42,647 bases of DNA from positions 1-42,647 of the IMG/VR virus record IMGVR_UViG_3300009103_000063; one strand, 5' to 3'. The translations under genes were made by a program, and so were the position numbers. This document shows, piece by piece, positions 2,553-40,473 of the stretch (within the stretch, counting starts at the first letter, position 1; each line of letters starts with the position of its first letter). The notes below the pieces were generated by a model. The model was not told the DNA's origin, did no database searches, and was given only the letters and a program-made list of their open reading frames with translations. Source of the stretch: a virus.

Positions 2553-2580
2553 TTGACATTCGCTCAGAATTGTCTATAAT
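2553..2580 (+). promoter_or_regulatory. Sigma70-type promoter for the CobT-like gene
   Basis: TTGACA at 2553-2558 and TATAAT at 2575-2580 are separated by 16 bases, a perfect match in both boxes. The spacer carries GCTCAG and the promoter ends in CTATAAT, features it shares with the promoter at 5154. Transcription should start near 2587, 16 bases before the small ORF at 2603. Confidence 0.8.
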
Positions 2581-2602
2581 TTGTACTGATCCGGGGGGCT
2601 AT

Positions 2603-2665
2603 ATGCCTTTGATTTACGCTGCGATTGCCATCGCGACTCTCATCCTCAAGGAGCTCTTCTCCTAA
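2603..2665 (+). CDS. 20-residue hydrophobic leader peptide coupled to the CobT-like gene
   Basis: A 20-codon ORF that is almost entirely hydrophobic (Leu, Ile, Ala) with one Lys-Glu pair near its end. Its TAA shares a base with the ATG of the CobT-like gene (TAATG). A G-run lies just upstream. Translation of this peptide would deliver ribosomes to the CobT start. It may be only a coupling leader, or it may be a tiny membrane partner. The CobS gene is preceded by a different small ORF arranged in the same way. Confidence 0.45.
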   Translation: MPLIYAAIAIATLILKELFS

Positions 2666-5070
2666 TGTCTATCTCTACTGTATCTGTCGGCGCCAAGTCT
2701 CGGCTTGCGAAGCTGCTGGCGAGTGAGAACATCACCGTCGAGCATCGCGAGGTCGAAACCGCGTACTTCGACGTAAAGCATCGGATTCTCTGCCTTCCCA
2801 TGTGGAAGGAGATGTCCGAGGACGTTTACGATATGCTGCTGGTCCACGAGACCGGTCACGCTTTGCACACTCCTATGGATGCATGGGAGCGTGCGGTCAT
2901 GGATCATGCTAACCCCTCGAAATTCAAGGGGTTTATCAATGTGTGTGAGGACGCGCGTGTCGATAAGCGCCAGAAGCGGAAGTACCCTGGGGCTCGGCGC
3001 TCCTACGCTTCTGCATTCAAGGTGCTCCGCGAAGCGGACTTCTTCCGTCTCGGTGATCGCGATCCCAACTCCATGGGGCTGGTCGACCGGATCAACCTGT
3101 TCCACAAAGGCTTCTCCGATGTGATCGTCTTCTCCGATGAGGAGAAGCTGTTCGTCGAGGCTGTGGCTGCGGCTGAATCCTTCAAGGATGCTGTCGCTGC
3201 GGCTGAAGCCATCTATGAGTACATGGCTTCCGATGAAGCGGAGACTGATACTCACTACGAGCCCGGCGATGCTGAGGCTGGCGAGTCCGATGAAGACGGC
3301 GAGAGTGGCGAGAGTGGTGAGTCCAAAGCTCCCTCGGGGGAGAATGATGATTCTCCGAGCTCCTCTACTGACGGCGATGGCGCTGGTGATTCCGACGAGG
3401 AAGGCGCCGATTCATCTGGCTCGGGGGAGGATGATGAATCCTCGAGCGATTCTAGCTCCGAGAGCGAATCTGAGGGAGATGAGGGAGAATCTTCGGATTC
3501 ATCAGATTCCCCTGAGGGAGCTTCCTCTTCTAATGGTCCTGGTGTTGGTGAGGGTGACGGTCCGACCTGCGAGACGGACGAAGCCCAGAGTGAGTCCGAG
3601 CGCGAGCTGGTGGCTGATACCAGTCGCGGCGATAATCGGCCTCCGATCTACACTTCCTTCCCTCGCGACGAGGCTTGGAATCTCGACAACCTGATCATCT
3701 CTCCTGACTATATCTATGGAGAGGTGGCGCGCCATATGAGCGACTATCGTGGGAGTGGCCACGAGGCTGCATATGATGCTACTGTAAAGCACATCGCGAA
3801 GGTCCACGACGAGTTTGTGAGTAAGAACAAGCCGATTGTGGCTTATCTCGCGAAGGAATTCGAGATGCGGAAGGCTGCTTCTGCGCGCCTCGGGGCTCGC
3901 ACTACGCGGTCCGGATCGCTCGATACCAATCGCCTTCATCGTCACAAGTGGGATGATGACGTATTCAAGCGGGCTGTGGAGCTCCCCAAGGGCAAGAATC
4001 ATGGCATGGTCATGTACGTTGACTGGTCTGGCTCTATGTCTATGAGTATCAATGCGGTGATCGACCAGGTCAAGGTGATGGCGATGTTCTGCAAGCGCAT
4101 TGGCATTCCGTTCGACGTGTATGCCTTCAGCGATGCTGCTTGTGGTGCTCCGATGTTCACCAATGCCGAAGGCGAATCGATCGACAGGCCGATCATCGAC
4201 CGCGAGAAGCTGGAGCGCGGCGACTATGTGGTTAACGAGGGCCGGCGCCGGCGGCAGTTCTCTCTGCTCCACCTGCTCTCCAGTTCGGTTCGTAACTCCA
4301 AGTTCAATGAGCATCTCCGCGGGCTGACCGCACTCCAGACTATGATGGGCTATGATGTCCCGATTGCTTCTCCTCGCTGGTTGGGCTTGTGTGGTACTCC
4401 TCTGTCGCAGGCGATCATGAGTGCGACGCCTGTGGTGAATCGCTTCCGCAAGGCGAATGGCTGTGAGATTGTTCACACCATCTTCCTGACTGATGGTGAA
4501 GGCTACTGCCCGTCGGCTGTATACGATCCTTCCGAAAATAGTGGTGAGAGGCGGCACTACGGCTATGGTCATGAGACTATTGTTCGCGACCATGCTTCTA
4601 AGCGTGAATGGAGTCTCAACGCCGACTTCCGCGATGCGGCCGCAGCCTTTGACCGTGCAGCCATTGAATACTTCAAGGTGCGCACCGGTTCGACGCTCTC
4701 GAACATGTTCCTGACTCCGGACAAGCGGTCCTTCAATAATGACATCGCGGCCGCTGTTCGCGATACGGATCATCCGCTTTGGGAAATGCTGAAGGAGAAC
4801 TTCAACGCCGCGGCTGTTAATACCGCCATTCGAGAGGAATGGAAACTCTGCAAGTCCGATGGTGGCGTTGTTTACTACCCCAAGGTCGGATGGAGCTCCT
4901 ACTTCCTGCTGCCCGTTAACACGATGGACGCTACGGCGAACACCGTTCTCGACGATAGCCTGACTGGTGCTCGCAAGGGAACGATCAAGAAGGCGTTCTC
5001 AAAGGCCAGCAGCGGAAAGGTCAAGAATCGGGTGATTCTGCGAAAATTCATCGAAATGGTGGCTGTTTGA
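2665..5070 (+). CDS. CobT-like protein: HExxH metallopeptidase motif, acidic linker, VWA domain
   Basis: An 801-residue protein in three parts. Residues about 1-190 contain H61-E-T-G-H65 plus E95 in a CEDARVD context, the zinc-site pattern of gluzincin-like metallopeptidases. Residues about 190-320 are an Asp/Glu/Ser/Gly linker of extreme acidity. From about 445 a von Willebrand A domain has a complete MIDAS: D453-W-S-G-S457, T578 and D610. CobT, the VWA subunit of cobaltochelatase, has a similar acidic middle and C-terminal VWA domain and works with the AAA+ CobS; the next large gene here is CobS-like. The HExxH domain is not part of classical CobT, so a MoxR/VWA-type proteolytic or remodelling machine is equally possible. 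The ribosome site AAGGAG lies 10 bases before the ATG. Codon use is GC-richer than in the replication genes. Confidence 0.8.
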   Translation: MSISTVSVGAKSRLAKLLASENITVEHREVETAYFDVKHRILCLPMWKEMSEDVYDMLLVHETGHALHTPMDAWERAVMDHANPSKFKGFINVCEDARVDKRQKRKYPGARRSYASAFKVLREADFFRLGDRDPNSMGLVDRINLFHKGFSDVIVFSDEEKLFVEAVAAAESFKDAVAAAEAIYEYMASDEAETDTHYEPGDAEAGESDEDGESGESGESKAPSGENDDSPSSSTDGDGAGDSDEEGADSSGSGEDDESSSDSSSESESEGDEGESSDSSDSPEGASSSNGPGVGEGDGPTCETDEAQSESERELVADTSRGDNRPPIYTSFPRDEAWNLDNLIISPDYIYGEVARHMSDYRGSGHEAAYDATVKHIAKVHDEFVSKNKPIVAYLAKEFEMRKAASARLGARTTRSGSLDTNRLHRHKWDDDVFKRAVELPKGKNHGMVMYVDWSGSMSMSINAVIDQVKVMAMFCKRIGIPFDVYAFSDAACGAPMFTNAEGESIDRPIIDREKLERGDYVVNEGRRRRQFSLLHLLSSSVRNSKFNEHLRGLTALQTMMGYDVPIASPRWLGLCGTPLSQAIMSATPVVNRFRKANGCEIVHTIFLTDGEGYCPSAVYDPSENSGERRHYGYGHETIVRDHASKREWSLNADFRDAAAAFDRAAIEYFKVRTGSTLSNMFLTPDKRSFNNDIAAAVRDTDHPLWEMLKENFNAAAVNTAIREEWKLCKSDGGVVYYPKVGWSSYFLLPVNTMDATANTVLDDSLTGARKGTIKKAFSKASSGKVKNRVILRKFIEMVAV

Positions 5071-5099
5071 ACACGGAAATTGTGACTTTTCGCCACTAT

Positions 5100-5144
5100 C
5101 TGACTGGTCAGCCAACTTTCTCGGTTATTTTACTGACCAGTCAG
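5100..5144. repeat. Two mirror-image 12-bp dyads, possible operator or hairpin
   Basis: CTGACTGGTCAG (5100-5111) and CTGACCAGTCAG (5133-5144) are each palindromic except for the central pair and are exact reverse complements of each other. Their centres are 33 bases apart, about three helix turns, and both are followed by CCA. They lie just upstream of the -35 box at 5154. They could be paired repressor sites for the CobS promoter, or the arms of a hairpin ending the CobT transcript. No T-run follows, which favours protein binding. Confidence 0.6.
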
Positions 5145-5153
5145 CCATTTCTA

Positions 5154-5181
5154 TTGACTTTTGCTCAGGAATGGCTATAAT
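5154..5181 (+). promoter_or_regulatory. Sigma70-type promoter for the lipoprotein/CobS pair
   Basis: TTGACT at 5154-5159 and TATAAT at 5176-5181 are separated by 16 bases. GCTCAG in the spacer and CTATAAT match the promoter at 2553. The expected start of transcription (5187-5189) falls on or next to the ATG of the small lipoprotein gene, so that message may be leaderless. Confidence 0.8.
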
Positions 5182-5188
5182 TAGGGTG

Positions 5189-5311
5189 ATGCTCCGAGTG
5201 ATTCTCTCTCTATTTTTGCTCCTCGCCTGCGACGGCGCCAAGCCGCGTCCCGCTCTCAGCGAGATTCTACTCGATCCTATTCACATTTCAATTGAGGAGA
5301 CTATAGTTTGA
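5189..5311 (+). CDS. Small predicted lipoprotein coupled to cobS
   Basis: A 40-residue product with one Arg, a Leu-rich core and a lipobox L-L-A-C with the cysteine at position 14, followed by Asp. Asp after the cysteine is the classical inner-membrane retention signal in Enterobacteria. The remaining 26 residues are short and acidic. The TGA overlaps the TTG start of cobS as TTGA. The ATG has no spaced ribosome site and sits at the predicted transcription start, so it may be read as a leaderless message or be partly a leader for cobS. The match to a lipoprotein signal is good. The role is unknown; a membrane tether for the AAA+/VWA pair or a lysis lipoprotein are guesses. Confidence 0.5.
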   Translation: MLRVILSLFLLLACDGAKPRPALSEILLDPIHISIEETIV

Positions 5312-6561
5312 TTCTGAAACCGAAGCAGGAAGCGTGGGTCCGCGCGGCTGAAGCCGCTGGCTACCCCGCTGGCTCGATTGTCGGCTATCCCGACATCGAC
5401 GCCATTTGTGAGTCCATGGGGGGCGTCACACGCCCTTGGTGGATGATCAATGACAAGGCTCACCGCGCTGGTCGCGGTAAGTTCCGCATCCCGAGTGCGG
5501 AAGCCTCTGAGGCGGCGCCGGTCGCGCCTCCCGTGCCGGTCGCGGCTGCTCCTGTAGCACCGCCTCCGGCTGCTGCGGTTGCACCGGTCATCCCGATGCA
5601 GCCTGCGCCCGAGGTGAAAAGCCCCGTGGCGCTCGCAAAGGTTGCGGCTGTCACCGAGTCGGCGATCCCCGACCTGTTCCCGAACTACGTTCCGTTCGGT
5701 CACTTCAAGGATGTGGTGACAATCGTTGAATCCCGCATGTTCTACCCGGTTTTCATCACGGGGCTTTCCGGAAACGGTAAGACTCTGATGGTCGAGCAGG
5801 CTTGCGCGAAGGCGAAGCGGGAATGCTTCCGTGTTCCTATCTCCAAGCTGACCGACGAGGAAGACCTGATCGGGGGCTTCCGCTTGGTTGACGGCGAGAC
5901 GGTCTGGTTCGACGGCCCTGTGCCTGAAGCCATGCGCCGCGGCGCTTTGCTCCTCCTCGATGAGGTCGACCAGGGCACTGAGAACCTGATGTGCCTCCAG
6001 GGCGTCCTTGAGGGCAAGCCGCTTCTCCTGAAGAAGATCAACGAGATTGTGAAGCCGACTCCCGGTTTCAATATCATCGCAACGGCGAACACCAAGGGCA
6101 AGGGCGATGAAGCTGGCCGCTTCATCGGTGCGAATATCATGAACGAAGCGTTCCTTGACCGCTACCCCATTACTCTCGAACAGGAGTATCCTTCGGTCGC
6201 GGTCGAAACCAAGATCATGAAGAAGGAGCTGGCTTCTCGGGGCGTGGCTGATGATGAGTTCGCAGCCAAGCTGGTCAATTGGGCTGACATCATCCGGAAG
6301 ACCTACTATGAGGGGGGTGTCGATGAGCTTATTGCTACGCGGCGCCTCGTCCACATCGTGGGTGCGTATGCCATGTTCCGTGATAAGATGAAGGCTATCA
6401 CGCTCGGGCTGTCTCGCTTCGATGAGGAGACTAAGGCTTCCTTCCTCGACCTCTACACCAAGGTGGATGAAACGGCTGGTGTTCCTGAGGAGGCTGTAGA
6501 GAGTGTGCCTGTGGTCGAGGAGGAGAGCAACGCAAAGGATGAGGAGCTGATCCCGTTCTAG
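5308..6561 (+). CDS. cobS: CobS-like AAA+ ATPase (MoxR group)
   Basis: A 417-residue AAA+ ATPase. Residues 1-60 form a small N-terminal domain, 64-105 are a Pro/Ala/Val linker, and the ATPase follows with Walker A GLSGNGKT (152-159) and Walker B LLLLDEVD (214-221). CobS is the ATPase subunit of aerobic cobaltochelatase and works with a VWA protein, CobT; a CobT-like gene is directly upstream. CobS homologues are frequent in marine T4-like phages. The start is TTG at 5308, supported by GAGGAG 8 bases upstream and by the TTGA overlap with the lipoprotein stop. Whether it supports B12 insertion or remodels a phage or host complex cannot be told from sequence. G/C-ending codons dominate. Confidence 0.85.
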   Translation: MILKPKQEAWVRAAEAAGYPAGSIVGYPDIDAICESMGGVTRPWWMINDKAHRAGRGKFRIPSAEASEAAPVAPPVPVAAAPVAPPPAAAVAPVIPMQPAPEVKSPVALAKVAAVTESAIPDLFPNYVPFGHFKDVVTIVESRMFYPVFITGLSGNGKTLMVEQACAKAKRECFRVPISKLTDEEDLIGGFRLVDGETVWFDGPVPEAMRRGALLLLDEVDQGTENLMCLQGVLEGKPLLLKKINEIVKPTPGFNIIATANTKGKGDEAGRFIGANIMNEAFLDRYPITLEQEYPSVAVETKIMKKELASRGVADDEFAAKLVNWADIIRKTYYEGGVDELIATRRLVHIVGAYAMFRDKMKAITLGLSRFDEETKASFLDLYTKVDETAGVPEEAVESVPVVEEESNAKDEELIPF

Positions 6562-28594: not shown

Positions 28595-29607
28595 TGCCTC
28601 ATAGTTTTAAAAAATATATTAGAGATTTGTCGGAAGCAAAAAAAAGAAAAAAAACAAGAGGGGCTCTTAATACCGCTGGGGCGGATGTTAATGAAATTCT
28701 TCTAGGATATTATATGTTAGGTGGTAAGTGGACAGGATTTCAGGACTCGAAATATGTAAAGGGACAGTTAGAAAAAAGAAAAAAACAGATAGGAGAAGAT
28801 GAGTACGCAATACAGTCTTTAAGAGCGGAACAGATGGCAAAAGAAGTTAAAATATGGACATCGAGCCGGTTAGAATATTCTAAAAGTAAGCCAGTGAAAG
28901 TTTGGTGGACTGCACGACCTGGTGTTTTGTCGAAGGCATTCGGGAAGGCGGTTGATTCTCGAAAAAATCCTACTGATACGTTAGTTCAGTATGATAATGG
29001 TGTGTTTTTAGGATTGTCGGCAAAATCAACAAAGGCTACTGAACCAGGATTCAAAAATCCAGGTATGGGCACTATAGAAAAGGCACTTGGTGTTGATTTG
29101 AGATCCGTTTTAGATAAAGAGCAGAATAAATTTATTAAGAAACACAATCTTTCTACTGTTCAGAGTAAAAGAAAAACAGAGATTAGGGCAGATAGTGATT
29201 TGGTTGCTGCCTCTGCCGCTGCCCGAGACATTACATTGAGAAAACTGCGTGATGCACTTATGAATGAATTGAAAAGCATATCTCAAGATAAATTAAAAGA
29301 ACATTTAAATAGTAATTGGATGGATGTAGATATTATTGGTCCTCCATATATTAAAGTTACTGGTAAAGGCGTTAAGCTGCCATTCACCGCAAAAATTATG
29401 GATCCTTTAGAAAAGCACGCTAAAATTAATTGGGATTATTATGCACATATGAAAAAAGTTGGAAATGATGGTATTGGAATATTCATGTCATATTCAAGTA
29501 GTGAGAATTCGGAGCATCGTTTACCCATATTAAAAATGCGTGTTAAGTATGGATCGCAGGCTATGGCATCTCCTATAAAATTCAGTGGAGAAGATTGGAA
29601 AGGATGA
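28594..29607 (+). CDS. Unknown protein, possibly nuclease-related
   Basis: A 337-residue protein with a very basic start (KKRKKTRG near residue 20), then DVNEILLGYYMLGG, then a central DTLVQYDNGVFLGLSAKST where an Asp precedes a strand ending S-A-K, weakly like a PD-(D/E)XK core. A long helical region (residues 175-240) and a C-terminal beta part follow. It is coupled to the previous gene by TAATG. It may act with that gene; both carry a D...SxK signature. No family recognised with confidence. Confidence 0.45.
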   Translation: MPHSFKKYIRDLSEAKKRKKTRGALNTAGADVNEILLGYYMLGGKWTGFQDSKYVKGQLEKRKKQIGEDEYAIQSLRAEQMAKEVKIWTSSRLEYSKSKPVKVWWTARPGVLSKAFGKAVDSRKNPTDTLVQYDNGVFLGLSAKSTKATEPGFKNPGMGTIEKALGVDLRSVLDKEQNKFIKKHNLSTVQSKRKTEIRADSDLVAASAAARDITLRKLRDALMNELKSISQDKLKEHLNSNWMDVDIIGPPYIKVTGKGVKLPFTAKIMDPLEKHAKINWDYYAHMKKVGNDGIGIFMSYSSSENSEHRLPILKMRVKYGSQAMASPIKFSGEDWKG

Positions 29608-29611
29608 AAAA

Positions 29612-30871
29612 ATGAAATCATTCTATCAGCATATAATATCTGAGGCCGCATCACCCGGGAAGAATCTTCACCTTGAGCATATTGAGGATGAAATTCTAAA
29701 CTTTGGTGTTAAAGGTGGCCGCGCGTCTATTAATTTTTTGCAAGAGCTTCGCGATATGTTAGCGGGCAATTCATCCAAGAAGGTGAATGTGACTGTAAAG
29801 TGGGATGGAGCGCCTGCTGTATTTGCTGGCATTGATCCTTCTGATGGAAAGTTTTTTGTTGGAACCAAAGGTGTCTTTGCTAAGAATCCTAAGATCGTTA
29901 AAACGACTGCCGATTTAGATACTTATGGATATAGCGGTGGATTACGAGAGAAGCTATCACTAGCACTGAAAGAGTTACCAAAGCTCGGTATTACTGGTGT
30001 GCTTCAGGGTGATATGATGTTTTCTTCTGATGACCTAGAAATTAAAACTATCGACGGGCAAGAATATATCACATTTCAGCCAAACACGATTGTTTATGCG
30101 ATTCCTACGGGTAGCGATTTAGCTAAGACAATACAAAAAGCAAAGATGGGAATTATATTTCATACGACATATGAGGGAGGTCCAACTCTTGCTGATATGA
30201 CTGCATCGTTTGGTGCGAATGTTTCTGGTCTTAGAAGCACTCCCTCTGTTTGGTTCGATAATGCAGATTATCAAGATGTATCGGGTAAGGTTTTGTTTAC
30301 CGATAAAGAGACGATTGAATTGACTCGTTATCTTTCTCGCGCCGAATCAGTTTTCCAAAAAATCAATACTAAGTCTCTTGACGAATTCATTCGCGCACAA
30401 TCTCAATTAGCATCTGCTGCTGGTTCGTCTTTTAAGACCTATAATAACAGTTTTATTCGAGCTGGAAAGGCGATTAAAGATCCCAGAAAACACAGCATGG
30501 ATTATTTGAGGTATTTTGAGGATTGGTGGCAGACAAAGGCAATCGGAAAAGTAAAGACTGAAAAAACTAAAGAAGCCAAACGACAGAAGATGCAAGAGCA
30601 TATGAGAATCATACAGAAAAATTTGAAAACGATTCAACAGATTACGGAATTTCAAATTCATTTGGTAGATGCCAAAAGTATGATTGTAAAAAAGCTAAAT
30701 AGTGGAGCGGGTGCGATGAAAACATTTGTGCAAACGCCCACGGGTTTCAAGGTAGTTGGTGACGAAGGCTATGTTGCAGTGGACCGATTAGGTAAAAATG
30801 CCGTTAAATTAGTTGACCGCCTTGAGTTTTCATATAATAACTTCACTGCTCAAAAAAATTGGAGTAAGTAA
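29612..30871 (+). CDS. Ligase-like nucleotidyltransferase candidate (DUF6267-like)
   Basis: A 419-residue protein. N-terminal HLEHIEDEILNFGVKGG leads to VTVKWDGAPAVFAG with K63-W-D-G, the KxDG pattern of motif I in ATP-dependent DNA/RNA ligases, where the Lys would be adenylated. Later LQGDMMF and IIFHTTYEG may be equivalents of motifs III-IV. The C-terminal 150 residues are helical and Lys-rich. I recall the family in T4-like phages as DUF6267. Ligase or other covalent-nucleotidyl transfer is plausible; the motif set is incomplete by eye. GGAAAGGATG precedes the ATG at 29612. Confidence 0.6.
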   Translation: MKSFYQHIISEAASPGKNLHLEHIEDEILNFGVKGGRASINFLQELRDMLAGNSSKKVNVTVKWDGAPAVFAGIDPSDGKFFVGTKGVFAKNPKIVKTTADLDTYGYSGGLREKLSLALKELPKLGITGVLQGDMMFSSDDLEIKTIDGQEYITFQPNTIVYAIPTGSDLAKTIQKAKMGIIFHTTYEGGPTLADMTASFGANVSGLRSTPSVWFDNADYQDVSGKVLFTDKETIELTRYLSRAESVFQKINTKSLDEFIRAQSQLASAAGSSFKTYNNSFIRAGKAIKDPRKHSMDYLRYFEDWWQTKAIGKVKTEKTKEAKRQKMQEHMRIIQKNLKTIQQITEFQIHLVDAKSMIVKKLNSGAGAMKTFVQTPTGFKVVGDEGYVAVDRLGKNAVKLVDRLEFSYNNFTAQKNWSK

Positions 30872-31216
30872 ATGTTATCATTCGTTGAGTGGGCAGAGTT
30901 GGATGAGGTTCTGACCGCACAGCAAAGAAAGAAGCGCGGAATTCAAATGAAACGAAATCGCGCAAAATTACGCCGCGGTCGAAAGCGCGCCCGCCAGCGT
31001 GTCGCCGGTACTGGTGTTCTTCAGAGAAGGGCAAAGAGACAGGCTAGAAGAGATGTCTTTCGTAAGCTGACTAGAGGAAAGAATCCGTCTGATGTGAATC
31101 CAGCATTTAGACGGGCAATTGAATTGAGAGTGAAAAAGAAACAAGGTTTGATTGGACGAAAGACTAAACAGTTAGTTAGAGTTAAAAAGAGGGAAGATGT
31201 AGCGCGACGTAGATGA
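30872..31216 (+). CDS. Very basic small protein, nucleic-acid binding candidate
   Basis: A 114-residue protein in which about 40 percent of residues are Arg or Lys after the first 17. The N-terminal segment LSFVEWAELDEVLT is acidic and hydrophobic; the remainder is helical with repeated RR/KR blocks. It starts directly after the ligase-like stop with no gap. A DNA- or RNA-condensing or internal head protein is possible. I recall a similar small basic gene next to the ligase-like gene in other T4-like marine phages. Confidence 0.55.
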   Translation: MLSFVEWAELDEVLTAQQRKKRGIQMKRNRAKLRRGRKRARQRVAGTGVLQRRAKRQARRDVFRKLTRGKNPSDVNPAFRRAIELRVKKKQGLIGRKTKQLVRVKKREDVARRR

Positions 31217-31256
31217 ATAAATAATATATTGGCAGTTAGGCTAAGGGAAACCTGCT

Positions 31257-32543
31257 ATGGCAAGAAAAGATACAGTAGTTATTGCTTGGGGTCGATTTAA
31301 TCCCCCAACAACAGGTCATGAGGTTGTATTTCGTCGTGTCGCCAAAGAGGCTCGTTCCCAAAATGCTGATTATTTGGTCTACCCAACCAAATCTGTAGAT
31401 CGAAAAAAGAATCCTCTCACCTTCAAGCAGAAGGTTCGATTTATGAAGAGGATGTTTCCGGATCATTCTAAAAACATTTCATCCGACGTATCTGTGAATA
31501 CTGTGATAAAGGCTGCACAGAAATCGGAAAGTCAAGGTTATTCTAATCTGGTGTTAGTGGTTGGTGCAGATAGAGTAAAGGAGTTTGAGGATTTATTGAA
31601 TCGATATAATGGAAAAGATTATGATTTCGATTCAATTGATATTGTGAGTGCGGGTGAGAGGGATCCTGATGCGGATGATGTTACCGGAATGTCTGCATCT
31701 AAGATGAGAGCAGCCGCATTTTCTGGAGACTATGCTTCGTTTTCAAAAGGTTTGCCTCGAGGATATAAAGGTGGTAAGGACTTATTTAATGCGGTGCGAA
31801 GTGGTATGGGGATTAAAGAAGATTATCAGTATGTATCTGAAGATTTAAGGTCTGGTGGTATTGGTGGACCAAGATTTAATAAGTTGCTTAGGTTTGGATT
31901 AGCAGTAGATGGTCAGGCTGATATACCATTAACCAAAAGAGCATTTAATAATTTCAAAAAGTCGCAATCCGATCCTACGATGCGACGAAAAGTTTATCAG
32001 ACAACAGATAAGCTATTTGATTTTGTGATAGATGATGACATTATATACCATAGATTACTTATGCTGTTGCATAAAGACCAAATATATGGAGATAAAGAGA
32101 TGACTAATGAGGTTAAAAAAGTAGTTGCAAAATTGCAAGAGAAGTCCGAAAAATCTGGTATCTCGTATGATGTTCTTGAGGAAGTGTTTTTAAGGGGCAT
32201 TGATTCTTGGGAAGCGGGTGATTGTTTAAGCGAGATGGATGTATATCAATGGTCGTTCTCTAGAGTTAATTCGTTTATATCTAATGGTAAATCTAGAAAA
32301 GTATTAGATGAAGATTTGTCGATAGAATACAATAGCAGTGTAATAGACGAAGACTTTGAAACCTTCATTTCAGAAAAAGATTATCAGGGTCGGTTATCAC
32401 CAGACAAGATTGCGAATAGAAGAAGACAGTTGGCACAAAAGACACAAGCAGTTAGAATGAGGGCTGCTGATAAGATTAGACAATTACGTCAAAAGGCGCA
32501 GGACCGAGAAGATCGTCAGCGCAGAAGCAGGAGTGTTGTATAA
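31257..32543 (+). CDS. HIGH-motif nucleotidyltransferase (NMN adenylyltransferase-like) with C-terminal extension
   Basis: A 428-residue protein. The first 190 residues form a cytidylyltransferase-type domain: GRFNPPTTGH (12-21, a HIGH-like T-x-G-H), LVVGADR and a late GMSASKMR. These are typical of NadM/NadD and related enzymes, and phage versions may make NAD. The remaining 230 residues are helical and charged, with no recognised domain, and end in a long Arg-rich coiled segment. Such fusions occur in marine T4-like phages. GGGAAACCTGCT precedes the ATG at moderate distance. Substrate unknown. Confidence 0.75.
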   Translation: MARKDTVVIAWGRFNPPTTGHEVVFRRVAKEARSQNADYLVYPTKSVDRKKNPLTFKQKVRFMKRMFPDHSKNISSDVSVNTVIKAAQKSESQGYSNLVLVVGADRVKEFEDLLNRYNGKDYDFDSIDIVSAGERDPDADDVTGMSASKMRAAAFSGDYASFSKGLPRGYKGGKDLFNAVRSGMGIKEDYQYVSEDLRSGGIGGPRFNKLLRFGLAVDGQADIPLTKRAFNNFKKSQSDPTMRRKVYQTTDKLFDFVIDDDIIYHRLLMLLHKDQIYGDKEMTNEVKKVVAKLQEKSEKSGISYDVLEEVFLRGIDSWEAGDCLSEMDVYQWSFSRVNSFISNGKSRKVLDEDLSIEYNSSVIDEDFETFISEKDYQGRLSPDKIANRRRQLAQKTQAVRMRAADKIRQLRQKAQDREDRQRRSRSVV

Positions 32544-34042
32544 TGAGCAACGATAAGAAGACTACAGGTTTTACTGGTGTCGAGAGTCTAGACCAAGACT
32601 TACTTGATGCTGTTTCTGGTGTTGTTGATACCGAAGATAAAATTAGAATGAATGATCAGGATCAGTATGTGGATCGTGTTACTGCAAATCTTCCGAAGAA
32701 TGATTTAGAGTTGATTTCTGAAGATGAGGATAGTGATTATGAGCCTGCTGATTCAATGGGTAGGCATCGAGGAGCGCATAGACTTAAAGTAAAGCCTATT
32801 AAGTATACTGCGGCAGATGAGAAAAGAGATCGTGAAGAACACAAACAGCGACAGAAAGAGATTCGACAACAGCGAGCGCAACGAAAGGCTTCTGGGGAAT
32901 GGGATCGGGGTGCAGGTGCGGCTCGTCGAGATAAGGAACGAATGAGGAAGTTTCAACAACAGCAAGCCGCGAAGGCTAAAAAGGAATCTTTCGATGAACT
33001 GACTGATGAAGATATTGATAATCTTCTAGAGATGTTTATACACGAGGGTGGTCTTGATAGTGTGAACAAGAAGGCACTCAAGAAGAATTTTAAAAACCGA
33101 AATGACAAAGACATCGATAACGATGGTGACGTTGACGGTTCTGATGAGTATCTACACAACCGACGAAAGAAGATTGCATCTAAAGTGAAGGAAGGTAAGA
33201 ACGGAAAGAAAGATCCTGTTGTTATTAATCCTACGGTAGAGTCTGTTGATTGGGAAGAAGCTCAATATTGGGATGAAGAGACTGTGGCTGACTTCCTCAA
33301 GCGAGGCGGAAAGATTACAAAGCTCAAGCCTCGTGTTGCTCGTGGTGCTAAGAAGAAGCAAACTATGAAGGTTAGGGGTGGTCGTCCAGGATCTAAAGAG
33401 TTGGCTCGCAAAGCTGAGAAGAAGATGCATGGCGAAGGATGGGAGGCACAGGCCAGTCCAGCAGAAAAGGCTAGGCGAGCACACCTAAAAGATAAAGGCT
33501 CGACAACTAAACGAATGTCTCAGGCTGGCACTAAGGACAGTCGTCCAATTCATATACCCAACAGAGAAACTGGTTCTGGGGGAATTGGTAGTAGAACTGG
33601 TCCTAGCACAAAGACTCAAAAGTACATTCGGGCTAATCCCCAGAGTGTGCGAAGAGAAGAAGCTGAGAAGTTTGACATCAAAGCATTTGTGAAGGGGCTT
33701 AAAGAAGGTGTCGTAGAGTGGGGAACAGACGAGGGCGCGAATAGATATAAGGATATGACTCCAGGACAAACTCCAGGCACTAACAATGTGCAGGGATTTG
33801 GATCCGATAAGCCTGATTTAGAAGAAGCTGGAGCCCGAGATCATTTTCGACAGTTTCAGAAAAAATTTAAGACTATGCCAAAAATTGATACTAAAGAATA
33901 TCCAGATATTCGAGGATTAGAAGGACCTTTTAGATTCAAGAATGGTGCTATATTATATTATGATCCAAAGGAAGGAAAGTATTACGACAATAAGAAAGAC
34001 ATGTATGTTGAGAAATTGCCAGAGGGTTGGGAGATCGAGTAA
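32543..34042 (+). CDS. Large charged protein with one EF-hand-like loop
   Basis: A 499-residue hydrophilic protein dominated by Lys, Arg, Asp, Glu and Gln. Residues about 190-205 read DKDIDNDGDVDGSDEYL, a near-ideal calcium-binding EF-hand loop followed by a helix. A Lys-rich block (about 285-320) and a C-terminal region with YYDPKEGKYYDNKKDM follow. It is coupled to the nucleotidyltransferase gene by TAATG. I recall similar genes in marine T4-like phages without known function; a virion or scaffolding role is possible. Confidence 0.55.
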   Translation: MSNDKKTTGFTGVESLDQDLLDAVSGVVDTEDKIRMNDQDQYVDRVTANLPKNDLELISEDEDSDYEPADSMGRHRGAHRLKVKPIKYTAADEKRDREEHKQRQKEIRQQRAQRKASGEWDRGAGAARRDKERMRKFQQQQAAKAKKESFDELTDEDIDNLLEMFIHEGGLDSVNKKALKKNFKNRNDKDIDNDGDVDGSDEYLHNRRKKIASKVKEGKNGKKDPVVINPTVESVDWEEAQYWDEETVADFLKRGGKITKLKPRVARGAKKKQTMKVRGGRPGSKELARKAEKKMHGEGWEAQASPAEKARRAHLKDKGSTTKRMSQAGTKDSRPIHIPNRETGSGGIGSRTGPSTKTQKYIRANPQSVRREEAEKFDIKAFVKGLKEGVVEWGTDEGANRYKDMTPGQTPGTNNVQGFGSDKPDLEEAGARDHFRQFQKKFKTMPKIDTKEYPDIRGLEGPFRFKNGAILYYDPKEGKYYDNKKDMYVEKLPEGWEIE

Positions 34043-37850: not shown

Positions 37851-38564
37851 ATGAATGAGAAAATGAGTGTTGAGTTGGTTGATCATATGGGGAGCGATCT
37901 GACTGTAGTGAATGCTGCCAGAGTGAGCCATAATAAACATGTCGATGAATTAGACGATAAAGACGAAAAGCTAATCAGATATTTGGCTAAAAATGGGCAT
38001 TGGACTCCGTTCGGTCATGCTATGATTACATTACGAGAAACTGTACCTATTTTTGTGGCTCGACAGAGATTCAAGCACACCGTTGGCTTTTGTTATAATG
38101 AAGTATCTAGACGATATGTTAAGGACGAACCGACCTTTTATTTACCTGATCAGTGGAGAGCTTCTGCCAAAAATGTGAAGCAAGGATCTTCTCAGACAGA
38201 TTTTATAGAAAAAATGTCTTCCACGATGAAAGGAGGAAAAATAGACTATGATGATGATTTTATGGTATCTTCAAAAGTAGATTGGATATATAATACATCT
38301 TTGAGTGTATATAATGAGATGTTAGAATCAGGAATTTGTGCAGAGCAAGCCCGAATGATTTTGCCGCAAGGAATGATGACCTCATATTATGTGACTGGTT
38401 CTTTGGCTGCTTGGGCAAGAGCATATCATTTGAGAGCTGAGGAGACTGCACAAAAAGAGATTCGTGATTTGGCTTCTATGTGGAACGAAAAAATTAATCC
38501 TATTTTTCCTAAATCCTGGGAAGCATTAGTTTTAGAAGGAAGTAATGATGATGCAGAAGACTGA
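37851..38564 (+). CDS. thyX: Flavin-dependent thymidylate synthase (ThyX)
   Basis: A 237-residue ThyX. Key words: AARVSHNKH, GHWTPFGHAMITLR, FVARQRFKHTVGFCYNEVSRRYV (the region of the RHRx7S signature, here R-Q-R and S of SRRY) and ILPQGMMTSYYVTGSLAAWARAYHLR. It makes dTMP from dUMP with FAD and NADPH, using dUMP from Dut (19123) and perhaps the deaminase (27232). The middle His of RHR is Gln, and an insertion lies before NEVS, as in many marine phage versions. It overlaps the reductase start by 20 bases. Confidence 0.92.
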   Translation: MNEKMSVELVDHMGSDLTVVNAARVSHNKHVDELDDKDEKLIRYLAKNGHWTPFGHAMITLRETVPIFVARQRFKHTVGFCYNEVSRRYVKDEPTFYLPDQWRASAKNVKQGSSQTDFIEKMSSTMKGGKIDYDDDFMVSSKVDWIYNTSLSVYNEMLESGICAEQARMILPQGMMTSYYVTGSLAAWARAYHLRAEETAQKEIRDLASMWNEKINPIFPKSWEALVLEGSNDDAED

Positions 38565-40473
38565 AGTTGAATTGCCCACCTTATATCAACAATTTATACA
38601 TTTATCGCGATATGCCAGATGGTTGCCTGAGCAAGGTAGAAGAGAAACTTGGAACGAAACTGTTGCGAGATATTTTGATTTTTTTGAATGGCAGTTGCAA
38701 GAGAATACTAAAGGTAAACTATCTAAGGCAGATAGAGAAGAATTAGAGAATGCAGTATTGGTGCTTGATGTGATGCCATCTATGCGTTGTCTAATGACCG
38801 CGGGAGAGGCATTGGCGCGAGAGAATATTGCAGGTTATAATTGTTCTTTTGTTGCGATTGACAATCCTCGTTCTTTTGATGAGATATTGTATATTCTAAT
38901 GAATGGAACTGGTGTTGGGTTTTCTGTAGAGAGACAGTTTACAAATTCGTTGCCGGTTGTGGCCGAAGAATTTCATTCAACAGAAACTACAATTATCGTT
39001 GCAGATTCTAAATTGGGTTGGGCAAAGGCCCTTAAAGAGTTGATCGCAATGTTATATACTGGTCAGATCCCAAGTTGGAATTTGAGCAAGATTCGACCTG
39101 CTGGTGCTCCATTGAAGACTTTTGGTGGACGAGCATCTGGCCCCGAGCCATTGGATGATCTTTTTCATTTTTGTGTTCGGATTTTTTCCGGTGCTTCTGG
39201 TCGTAAGTTGACTTCGATTGAATGTCATGATTTGGTTTGTAAGATTGCTGAAATTGTGGTTGTTGGTGGTGTGCGTCGTTCTGCGTTACTTTCGCTGTCT
39301 AATTTGTCAGACGAACGAATGCGACACGCGAAGAGTGGTGAATGGCACATTGCAAATTCTCAGCGTGCGCTTTCAAACAATTCTGCTGCATATACAGAGA
39401 AGCCTGATATTGGAATCTTTATGGCAGAGTGGCTTTCGTTGTATGAGAGTAAGAGTGGTGAGCGAGGAATTTTTTCACGAAAAGCGTCGCAGAACAAAGC
39501 CATTGAGGGTGGAAGAAGAGATCCTGATCACCAGTTTGGAACTAATCCGTGTAGTGAGATTGTTCTGCGGTCGAAGCAGTTTTGCAATTTGTCTGAAGTT
39601 ATTGCTCGCCCAAGTGATTCTATGGAAGAGTTGGAGCGTAAGGTTCGTTTGGCAACAATACTTGGTACGATGCAATCGACACTGACATCATTTCGATATG
39701 TTGGTAGTGCTTGGAAACGAAATTGTGAGGAGGAGAGATTACTTGGTGTCAGTTTAACTGGAATTATGGATAGTGAATTGACTAATGGTAAGAAGAAGAA
39801 TCTAGAAGATCGACTTAGAGCACTGCGTCAAGTTGCAGTTGATACCAATAAAGAATGGGCTAAAAAGTTAGGCATTAATCAATCGACAGCGATTACATGT
39901 GTTAAGCCGAGCGGCACAGTGTCTCAGTTGGTTGATGCTGCAAGTGGAATTCATGCGAGACATAATCCATTTTACATTCGTACCGTTCGTGGTGATAAGA
40001 AAGATCCTCTTGCGAAGATGATGGTCGATGTTGGTTTTCCAGTTGAAGATGACATCATGCAGCCTACACACAATTGGGTATTTTCGTTTCCGGTGAAGGC
40101 TCCCTCGAACGCTATCTTCAGAAAAGATATGAGTGCGATTGAGCAATTGGAACATTGGTTGGTGTATCAGAGAGCATGGTGTGAGCATAAACCTTCTTGC
40201 ACAGTATCGGTAAAAGAGGACGAATGGTTTGAAGTTGGTGCTTGGGTATATAAGCATTTTGATGAGATTAGTGGAATATCTTTCTTGCCTTTCTCGGATC
40301 ACATTTACAAGCAAGCTCCGTATACAGATTGTTCAAAAGAAGAATATAACGAACAATCAAAGAGAATGCCTAAGTCGGTGGATTGGTCAGAATTGGCAAG
40401 ATATGAAAATACCGATCAGACGTTAGGCTCACAAGAATTGGCATGTGCTGCTGGAGAATGTGAAATTGTTTAG
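38545..40473 (+). CDS. nrdJ: Class II (adenosylcobalamin-dependent) ribonucleotide reductase, monomeric type
   Basis: A 642-residue class II reductase like Lactobacillus RTPR (739). Matching residues: thiyl C336 with E338 in NPCSEI, redox partners C100 and C347, N334, GGVRRSA (241-247), and a C-terminal C634-x4-C639 pair that re-reduces the enzyme. It lacks about 100 residues, partly between C100 and C336, where RTPR has its allosteric B12-side insert, so regulation may be simplified. It needs B12 but no second subunit and no oxygen. Glutaredoxin is encoded nearby. AGAAGGA upstream lets any of three tandem ATGs serve. Confidence 0.93.
   Translation: MMMQKTEVELPTLYQQFIHLSRYARWLPEQGRRETWNETVARYFDFFEWQLQENTKGKLSKADREELENAVLVLDVMPSMRCLMTAGEALARENIAGYNCSFVAIDNPRSFDEILYILMNGTGVGFSVERQFTNSLPVVAEEFHSTETTIIVADSKLGWAKALKELIAMLYTGQIPSWNLSKIRPAGAPLKTFGGRASGPEPLDDLFHFCVRIFSGASGRKLTSIECHDLVCKIAEIVVVGGVRRSALLSLSNLSDERMRHAKSGEWHIANSQRALSNNSAAYTEKPDIGIFMAEWLSLYESKSGERGIFSRKASQNKAIEGGRRDPDHQFGTNPCSEIVLRSKQFCNLSEVIARPSDSMEELERKVRLATILGTMQSTLTSFRYVGSAWKRNCEEERLLGVSLTGIMDSELTNGKKKNLEDRLRALRQVAVDTNKEWAKKLGINQSTAITCVKPSGTVSQLVDAASGIHARHNPFYIRTVRGDKKDPLAKMMVDVGFPVEDDIMQPTHNWVFSFPVKAPSNAIFRKDMSAIEQLEHWLVYQRAWCEHKPSCTVSVKEDEWFEVGAWVYKHFDEISGISFLPFSDHIYKQAPYTDCSKEEYNEQSKRMPKSVDWSELARYENTDQTLGSQELACAAGECEIV

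Follow-up and report, generated by a model that had tools for sequence, protein, structure and literature searches.

A zincin-VWA protein and a MoxR/CobS-type AAA+ ATPase in a T4-like phage genome fragment: a candidate early proteolytic remodelling machine

The gene pair and its proposed role

Two adjacent genes of virus record IMGVR_UViG_3300009103_000063 were analysed within a 42.6-kb fragment (42,647 nucleotides (nt), hereafter the window), the first encoding a metallopeptidase-VWA protein of 801 amino acids (aa) and the second a MoxR/CobS-type AAA+ ATPase of 417 aa. The pair is read here, with a probability of roughly 0.55, as a MoxR/VWA machine with zinc-peptidase proteolysis, which is driven by host-type promoters and whose early target is a host protein or one linked to replication. 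The positions and strand given for both open reading frames (ORFs) in a preliminary description of the window were reproduced exactly, and its likening of the pair to a MoxR/VWA system over a classical cobaltochelatase was supported by an invariant zinc site, the lack of an accompanying CobN, the failed CobS cut-off, the lack of a CobT match and a VWA domain similar to those of NorD and midasin. A view of the pair as an unusual phage-borne curiosity did not hold: T4-like cyanophages have it among their core features, both halves have been published (PMC7824862, PMC8651126, PMC3037559), and the system is already known and widespread in phages, mostly under the label 'CobS plus peptidase', and is not new. 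What is added here is evidence bearing on the disagreement between the published readings, together with a sign of a degenerate N-domain in CobT.

Of the 'auxiliary metabolic genes' known from marine viruses, the gene cobS is one of the most familiar, and it is regularly cited as evidence that phages boost B12. Should the protein that always accompanies it be a zinc protease-VWA protein, with no CobN alongside the pair, then in T4-like marine phages the B12 reading is probably incorrect; if this is true, the published readings (virion assembly versus cobaltochelatase) would be separable by simple mutants and assays.

Conserved predicted zinc site of the N-terminal domain

The HExxH motif and E95 noted in the preliminary description were present, and their possible non-conservation was checked with 49 aligned homologues of the 801-aa protein. 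H61, E62, H65, E95, D96 and R98 were unchanged in 49/49, at a mean column identity of 33%. An AlphaFold model built for the N-domain from 48 sequences placed HExxH within helix 52-68 and E95 within the adjacent helix 84-106, which is the gluzincin layout. The top 16 matches of this model to the PDB by Foldseek were all zincin metallopeptidases (E 0.18-1.1), with the minigluzincins jannalysin and abylysin first, then ArdC, IrrE/PprI, selecase and BlaR1, and also a Zn-peptidase. Judged from sequence and model, the N-domain is probably a gluzincin-type zinc peptidase domain and is predicted to be active; E62 is strictly retained (49/49), unlike in a NorD-like protein and in CobT, which argues for catalysis.

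Neither Pfam (above cut-off) nor NCBIfam recognised the 801-aa protein, the sole Pfam hit being a sub-cut-off one to DUF2201_N, a putative metallopeptidase domain (E 0.16). A PDB sequence search with the peptidase profile returned matches to the low-complexity linker only. When PF13203 (DUF2201_N) was tracked through 100 genomes, it seldom matched their phylum.

Architecture and proposed mechanism

Behind the N-domain, the very acidic linker and the intact MIDAS (metal ion-dependent adhesion site) claimed beforehand were both confirmed: the linker is acidic in all homologues (D+E 21-39%), and D453-x-S455-x-S457, T578 and D610 of the MIDAS are kept throughout. The best PDB matches of the full model by Foldseek were the NorD VWA domain of NorQ-NorD complexes and the midasin MIDAS.

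The ATPase carries the Walker A/B, sensor and arginine features of the MoxR/CobS clade, namely Walker A GLSGNGKT, Walker B D218-E219, sensor-1 N261 and the arginines R285, R330 and R345. These residues were conserved in 51/51 aligned sequences, with the exception of Walker A T159 (T in 49, S in 2). Besides AAA_5 (E 8e-19), Pfam gave a weak match to the C-terminus of CbbQ/NirQ/NorQ (CbbQ_C), and the family profile matched in the PDB the CobS chain 9ujv (E 1.6e-51) and NorQ 9qh4 (E 9e-24), as well as CbbQ and midasin. The TTG start is supported by the colinear homologue L003, which has ATG at that position.

By homology, the 417-aa protein would assemble as an AAA+ ring, on which the 801-aa protein, as in the NorQ-NorD and CobS-CobT structures, would dock via its VWA domain. 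The MIDAS would hold a client, and the N-terminal zinc metallopeptidase domain (HExxH plus E95, gluzincin type) would be tethered by the flexible acidic linker. ATP hydrolysis would pull or twist the client, and the peptidase would then cut it, or the client would change its shape. We infer zinc binding and proteolysis by the 801-aa protein and, by homology, contact between the two phage proteins. Since both genes share the same host-type promoter and a replication or recombination neighbourhood, such a machine would most likely act early, on a replication-linked or host protein.

Several points weigh against this proteolytic reading. Fold similarity of the N-domain to known structures is weak, the best E being 0.18 and the TM-score normalised by query about 0.25. 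Some cousins of the PHROG 1576 family have lost the zinc site (SEIAK in Pseudomonas phage hairong, QEVAK in an Acinetobacter plasmid), which means that such a machine can occur in a form lacking peptidase activity. Because the IMG/VR loci are related by descent, their conservation and promoter counts cannot be treated as independent, and binomial values overstate the significance of the promoters. The early timing is read from the promoter consensus.

Promoters and timing

The claim of dedicated regulation agrees, as far as sequence can tell, with two matched sigma70-type promoters whose extended pattern is unique in the window. The promoter sequences ahead of the two genes are TTGACATTCGCTCAGAATTGTCTATAATT and TTGACTTTTGCTCAGGAATGGCTATAATT (P1 and P2 in Table 1), with 12 of the 16 spacer bases identical. 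The extended P1/P2 pattern has no further copy in the window and no copy in any of 100 shuffles (0 expected); the pattern was derived from P1 and P2 themselves, so the shuffles tell no more than that similar sequences are lacking elsewhere. Promoter-like sites (at least 10 of 12 consensus positions) stood before the peptidase gene in 30 of 48 relatives and before the ATPase gene in 36, with a background of 0.145 per 250 nt, and inside one phage both sites frequently had a common spacer sequence. A 60.7-kb relative has exactly two copies of the pattern, one ahead of each gene. In a 171-kb relative, a strict copy precedes the peptidase gene, a diverged copy precedes the ATPase gene, and a further copy stands before a 78-aa ORF elsewhere. 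A promoter private to the pair was considered and rejected because of this further copy, by which the sequence is probably a rare early promoter, not a private operator.

The 78-aa ORF of the 171-kb relative (G161; L165, 1217-1516) is itself preceded by an exact copy of the peptidase promoter, and its product is possibly a co-regulated small protein. In L003, a hairpin with a T-run lies 5' of each promoter. The inverted repeat between the two genes of the window (Table 1) is a possible terminator or operator. A 40-aa ORF with a lipoprotein-like leader (MLRVILSLFLLLACDG...) at 5189-5311 of the window terminates on the TTG start of the ATPase gene; neither it nor the other small ORFs immediately 5' of the two genes were apparent in L003.

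Possible remodelling without proteolysis or in virion assembly

The proteolytic reading and the next two are all MoxR/VWA remodelling machines. In the first of these alternatives, which is rather unlikely, the metal of the N-domain is structural and the pair is a non-proteolytic chaperone that inserts a metal into a client or remodels it, as NorQD does for nitric oxide reductase. NorQ-NorD (PDB 9qh6, 9qhe) is the closest fold match by its VWA domain and shares the layout of N-domain, disordered linker and VWA domain; NorQD is reported to work by linker twisting, in which a VWA finger sits in the AAA+ pore (PMC13036017, PMC9976466). NorD differs in that it puts iron into nitric oxide reductase, and the NorD-like protein inspected here has a similar signature (HMAAH...EDARVE) without the catalytic Glu, which can be taken on the side of a chaperone; the invariance of E62 in the phage family stands against it.

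A role of the pair in assembling and trimming structural proteins of the virion, which is improbable, was proposed by Iyer et al. 2021 for a MoxR AAA+ plus metallopeptidase-vWA pair in group 2.2 jumbo phages (PMC7824862). The domain architecture is identical to their description: two genes, of which the vWA partner is fused to an N-terminal metallopeptidase domain, and in the window a MoxR/CobS-clade AAA+ protein adjacent to a VWA protein with a complete MIDAS (DxSxS-T-D) and an N-terminal metallopeptidase domain (with weak fold E-values) was found. A MoxR-VWA pair required for archaeal virus tail assembly is also cited there (PMC7824862). However, their pair is from jumbo phages, while the present one is from a T4-like, Kyanoviridae-related phage, lies in a replication block and has matched early-type promoters, and the two are likened by description, not by sequence. 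The location in the replication block (the gp46-gp45 interval in cyanophages) and the host sigma70-type sites, with no T4-type late promoter (TATAAATA box) found ahead of the peptidase or the ATPase gene in any of 48 loci, speak against virion assembly but are suggestive only.

The cobaltochelatase reading

Liu et al. 2021 named the pair cobST, read it as a cobaltochelatase and judged the peptidase annotation a mistake (PMC8651126). Accordingly, the pair would substitute for CobS and CobT and use the CobN of the host for cobalt insertion, thereby raising cobalamin, for example for a B12-dependent reductase of the phage. In their description, viral and haloarchaeal cobST form one widespread two-gene cluster that takes in the cyanophage pair (PMC8651126). 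Like CobS-CobT (PDB 9uka and relatives), the phage system consists of a MoxR-clade ATPase akin to CobS and a VWA protein with the order N-domain, acidic linker and VWA, whose N-domain is related to that of CobT via intermediates. The VWA domains of the phage protein and CobT align (E 9e-5, probability 60%), and a class II reductase gene is present in this phage.

Against this reading stand the invariant zinc site and the lack of CobN. The ATPase scores 81.9 bits on the TIGR01650 CobS model versus a cut-off of 558.55 bits, and the 801-aa protein matches neither the NCBIfam CobT model (TIGR01651) nor Pfam PF06213/PF11775, so that the pair is far below the NCBIfam cut-offs. CobT, which works with CobN, has DAYALR in place of HExxH; in 30 CobT proteins from alphaproteobacterial genomes the N-domain zinc site was found in none (a HEPAH at residue 264 of a 951-aa start-extended reading was not counted), whereas the phage family retains it throughout. 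A CobN-like gene was found by tblastn in 2 of 50,697 phage records, neither of them a cyanophage, and CobN was absent from the five relatives examined, three of which are complete phages; the phage studied here is represented by a 42.6-kb fragment.

The B12-dependent ribonucleotide reductase of the window is real (38545-40473; PHROG 367, E 8e-189), although it scores 322 bits versus TIGR02505, slightly below the cut-off of 340 bits; the B12 link between the pair and this reductase, on which the preliminary description had based a possible cofactor role, does not hold across relatives. NrdJ-like genes occur in 11 Synechococcus phage records versus 365 with the pair, and larger pair-bearing relatives match the class II reductase family weakly and in part or not at all, their reductases being read as class I enzymes. 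Pelagiphages carry the pair, though SAR11 is not known to synthesise B12 de novo. With this evidence, service of the pair as a viral CobST is quite improbable.

In 41 alphaproteobacterial genomes (G003 and G011-G050, with completeness not shown), CobT (PF06213) was found in 27, and 12 of these were without CobN (PF02514); in the named control, Caulobacter vibrioides, CobT was present and CobN absent. Cellular CobST may serve something besides cobalt insertion.

Distribution and gene neighbourhood

By tblastn at E 1e-5, the peptidase matched in 463 phage records and the ATPase in 576, with equal counts of cyanophage records for both proteins (365 Synechococcus, 61 'Cyanophage' and 24 Prochlorococcus each). 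The pair was found in about 450 T4-like cyanophages and pelagiphages, including the pelagiphages HTVC008M and Mosig. The gene order in S-PM2, S-CAM1 and S-SSM7, small ORFs aside, is gp46 - peptidase - cobS - gp45, and P-SSM2 carries the pair with three small ORFs in between. By profile and by gp46-gp45 position, the genes are orthologous to the T4-like cyanophage core genes 'peptidase' (T4-GC 146 / PHROG 459) and cobS (T4-GC 150 / PHROG 249), with 24-40% identity to the cyanophage peptidase over the full protein. Unlike those phages, the window has a class II reductase and 8.5 kb between the pair and gp45.

No IMG/VR relatives were found with the peptidase as the single query; they were collected through the ATPase query (80 loci), and the peptidase was then detected by profile in 73 of them. 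The remaining seven have the ATPase no more than about 2 kb from the upstream contig end, except for L074, where about 5.9 kb upstream of the ATPase gave no peptidase match. Both genes, where present by phmmer in the IMG/VR and phage loci, were on the same strand (78/78), usually with a gap of less than 200 nt; in L002 and L017 the gene order is swapped and the pair is still adjacent. The PADLOC models of anti-phage and conflict systems gave no match for the pair.

Cousins and evolution of the N-domain

Cousins of the pair were found in Rhizobium phage RHph_Y2_17_1, Shinella and Sinorhizobium plasmids (phage-plasmid-like), Pseudomonas phage hairong and ICP2. Their neighbours, where seen, include DNA polymerase, ligase, primase or recombination genes; distinct mobile elements retain a MoxR and zincin/CobT-like VWA pair next to replication or recombination genes. 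An integrative-element-like region of Marinobacter salinexigens (L115, 3860-11435; the same match in L117 and L114) has the order YqaJ recombinase - MoxR AAA+ - unknown - DUF3150 - HEAAH/ED zincin-VWA - Toprim primase, in which DUF3150 could be a third component.

The PHROG 1576 N-domain matched the window family with 98% probability (E 3e-14) and true CobT with 49% (E 1.8e-4). When the phage N-domain was compared directly with those of true CobT proteins, the profile alignment was not significant (probability 3%, E 0.013), and the link is via PHROG 1576 intermediates only. In a joint alignment, the zinc-motif columns hold HExxH in most mobile-element versions, SEIAK or QEVAK in two, HMAAH in the NorD-like protein and DAYALR-type residues in CobT; most aligned versions have the motif, then an ED/EQ-x-R-x-E-like helix and then PG. 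Because HExxH and the DAYALR-type residues occupy the same columns, the CobT N-domain appears to be a degenerate version of the phage zincin-like domain, with the direction of change left unassigned. A tentative scenario, more doubtful than otherwise, is an ancestral mobile-element machine in T4-like phages, phage-plasmids and integrative elements, in which a MoxR ring and an active zincin-VWA protease would work on replication-linked or host proteins, and from which CobT and NorD would later have lost the protease site and been re-used for metal insertion.

The NorD-like protein (L149 of genome G157) reads HMAAH...LIEDARVE...FPG, the phage zincin signature minus the catalytic Glu, and has a weak PHROG 459 match (E 7e-4). 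A search of the 41 alphaproteobacterial genomes for NorD-like proteins found none.

Feature coordinates and other genes of the window

Table 1. Positions of the gene pair, its domains and motifs, and the associated promoter and repeat sequences in the window
Feature	Position	Strand	Details
Sigma70-type promoter P1, TTGACA-16-TATAAT	2553..2581	+	12/12 consensus; 84 nt before the metallopeptidase-VWA gene
Metallopeptidase-VWA protein	2665..5070	+	801 aa; PHROG 459 'peptidase', E 4.6e-164; 49 aligned homologues
N-terminal zincin-like domain, residues 1-195	2665..3249	+	AF2 model, mean pLDDT (predicted local distance difference test) 87.9, pTM (predicted TM-score) 0.83
Codons H61-E62-T63-G64-H65, predicted zinc-binding/catalytic motif	2845..2859	+	H61, E62 and H65 invariant (49/49)
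Codons E95-D96-A97-R98	2947..2958	+	E95, D96 and R98 invariant (49/49); third zinc ligand predicted to be E95
Disordered acidic linker, about residues 196-335	3250..3669	+	pLDDT <50 at residues 195-296; D+E 32%, K+R 3% (residues 180-335)
Helical stalk and C-terminal VWA domain	3763..5067	+	Foldseek: NorD VWA in NorQD 9qhe/9qh6, midasin MIDAS 8ql1
MIDAS DWSGS (D453, S455, S457), completed by T578 and D610	4021..4035	+	Five residues invariant (49/49)
Perfect 12-bp inverted repeat CTGACTGGTCAG...CTGACCAGTCAG	5100..5144	+	Repeat search; fold z -4.2; between the genes
Sigma70-type promoter P2, TTGACT-16-TATAAT	5154..5182	+	Precedes the ATPase gene; matches P1
MoxR/CobS-type AAA+ ATPase, TTG start	5308..6561	+	417 aa; PHROG 249 (labelled 'porphyrin biosynthesis', the phage CobS family), E 6e-107; AAA_5, E 8e-19

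The T4-type replication genes of the window encode a gp45-like clamp (15063), the clamp loaders gp44 and gp62, RegA, the gp43 polymerase, UvsX and a DnaB-like helicase. The pair is located upstream of gp45, gp44, gp62, regA and gp43, and is separated from gp45 by a region with small ORFs and tRNAs. The gp43 polymerase is nearest to cyanophage polymerases (about 52% identity). The adenosylcobalamin-dependent reductase is nearest, at about 64%, to those of Puniceispirillum phage HMO-2011 and roseophages, which is odd alongside a cyanophage-like polymerase and may indicate a marine alphaproteobacterial host. Large neighbouring ORFs at 29585-34042 have matches to PHROG 455 and to cytidyltransferase families; the PHROG 455 profile is divided between two of the ORFs.

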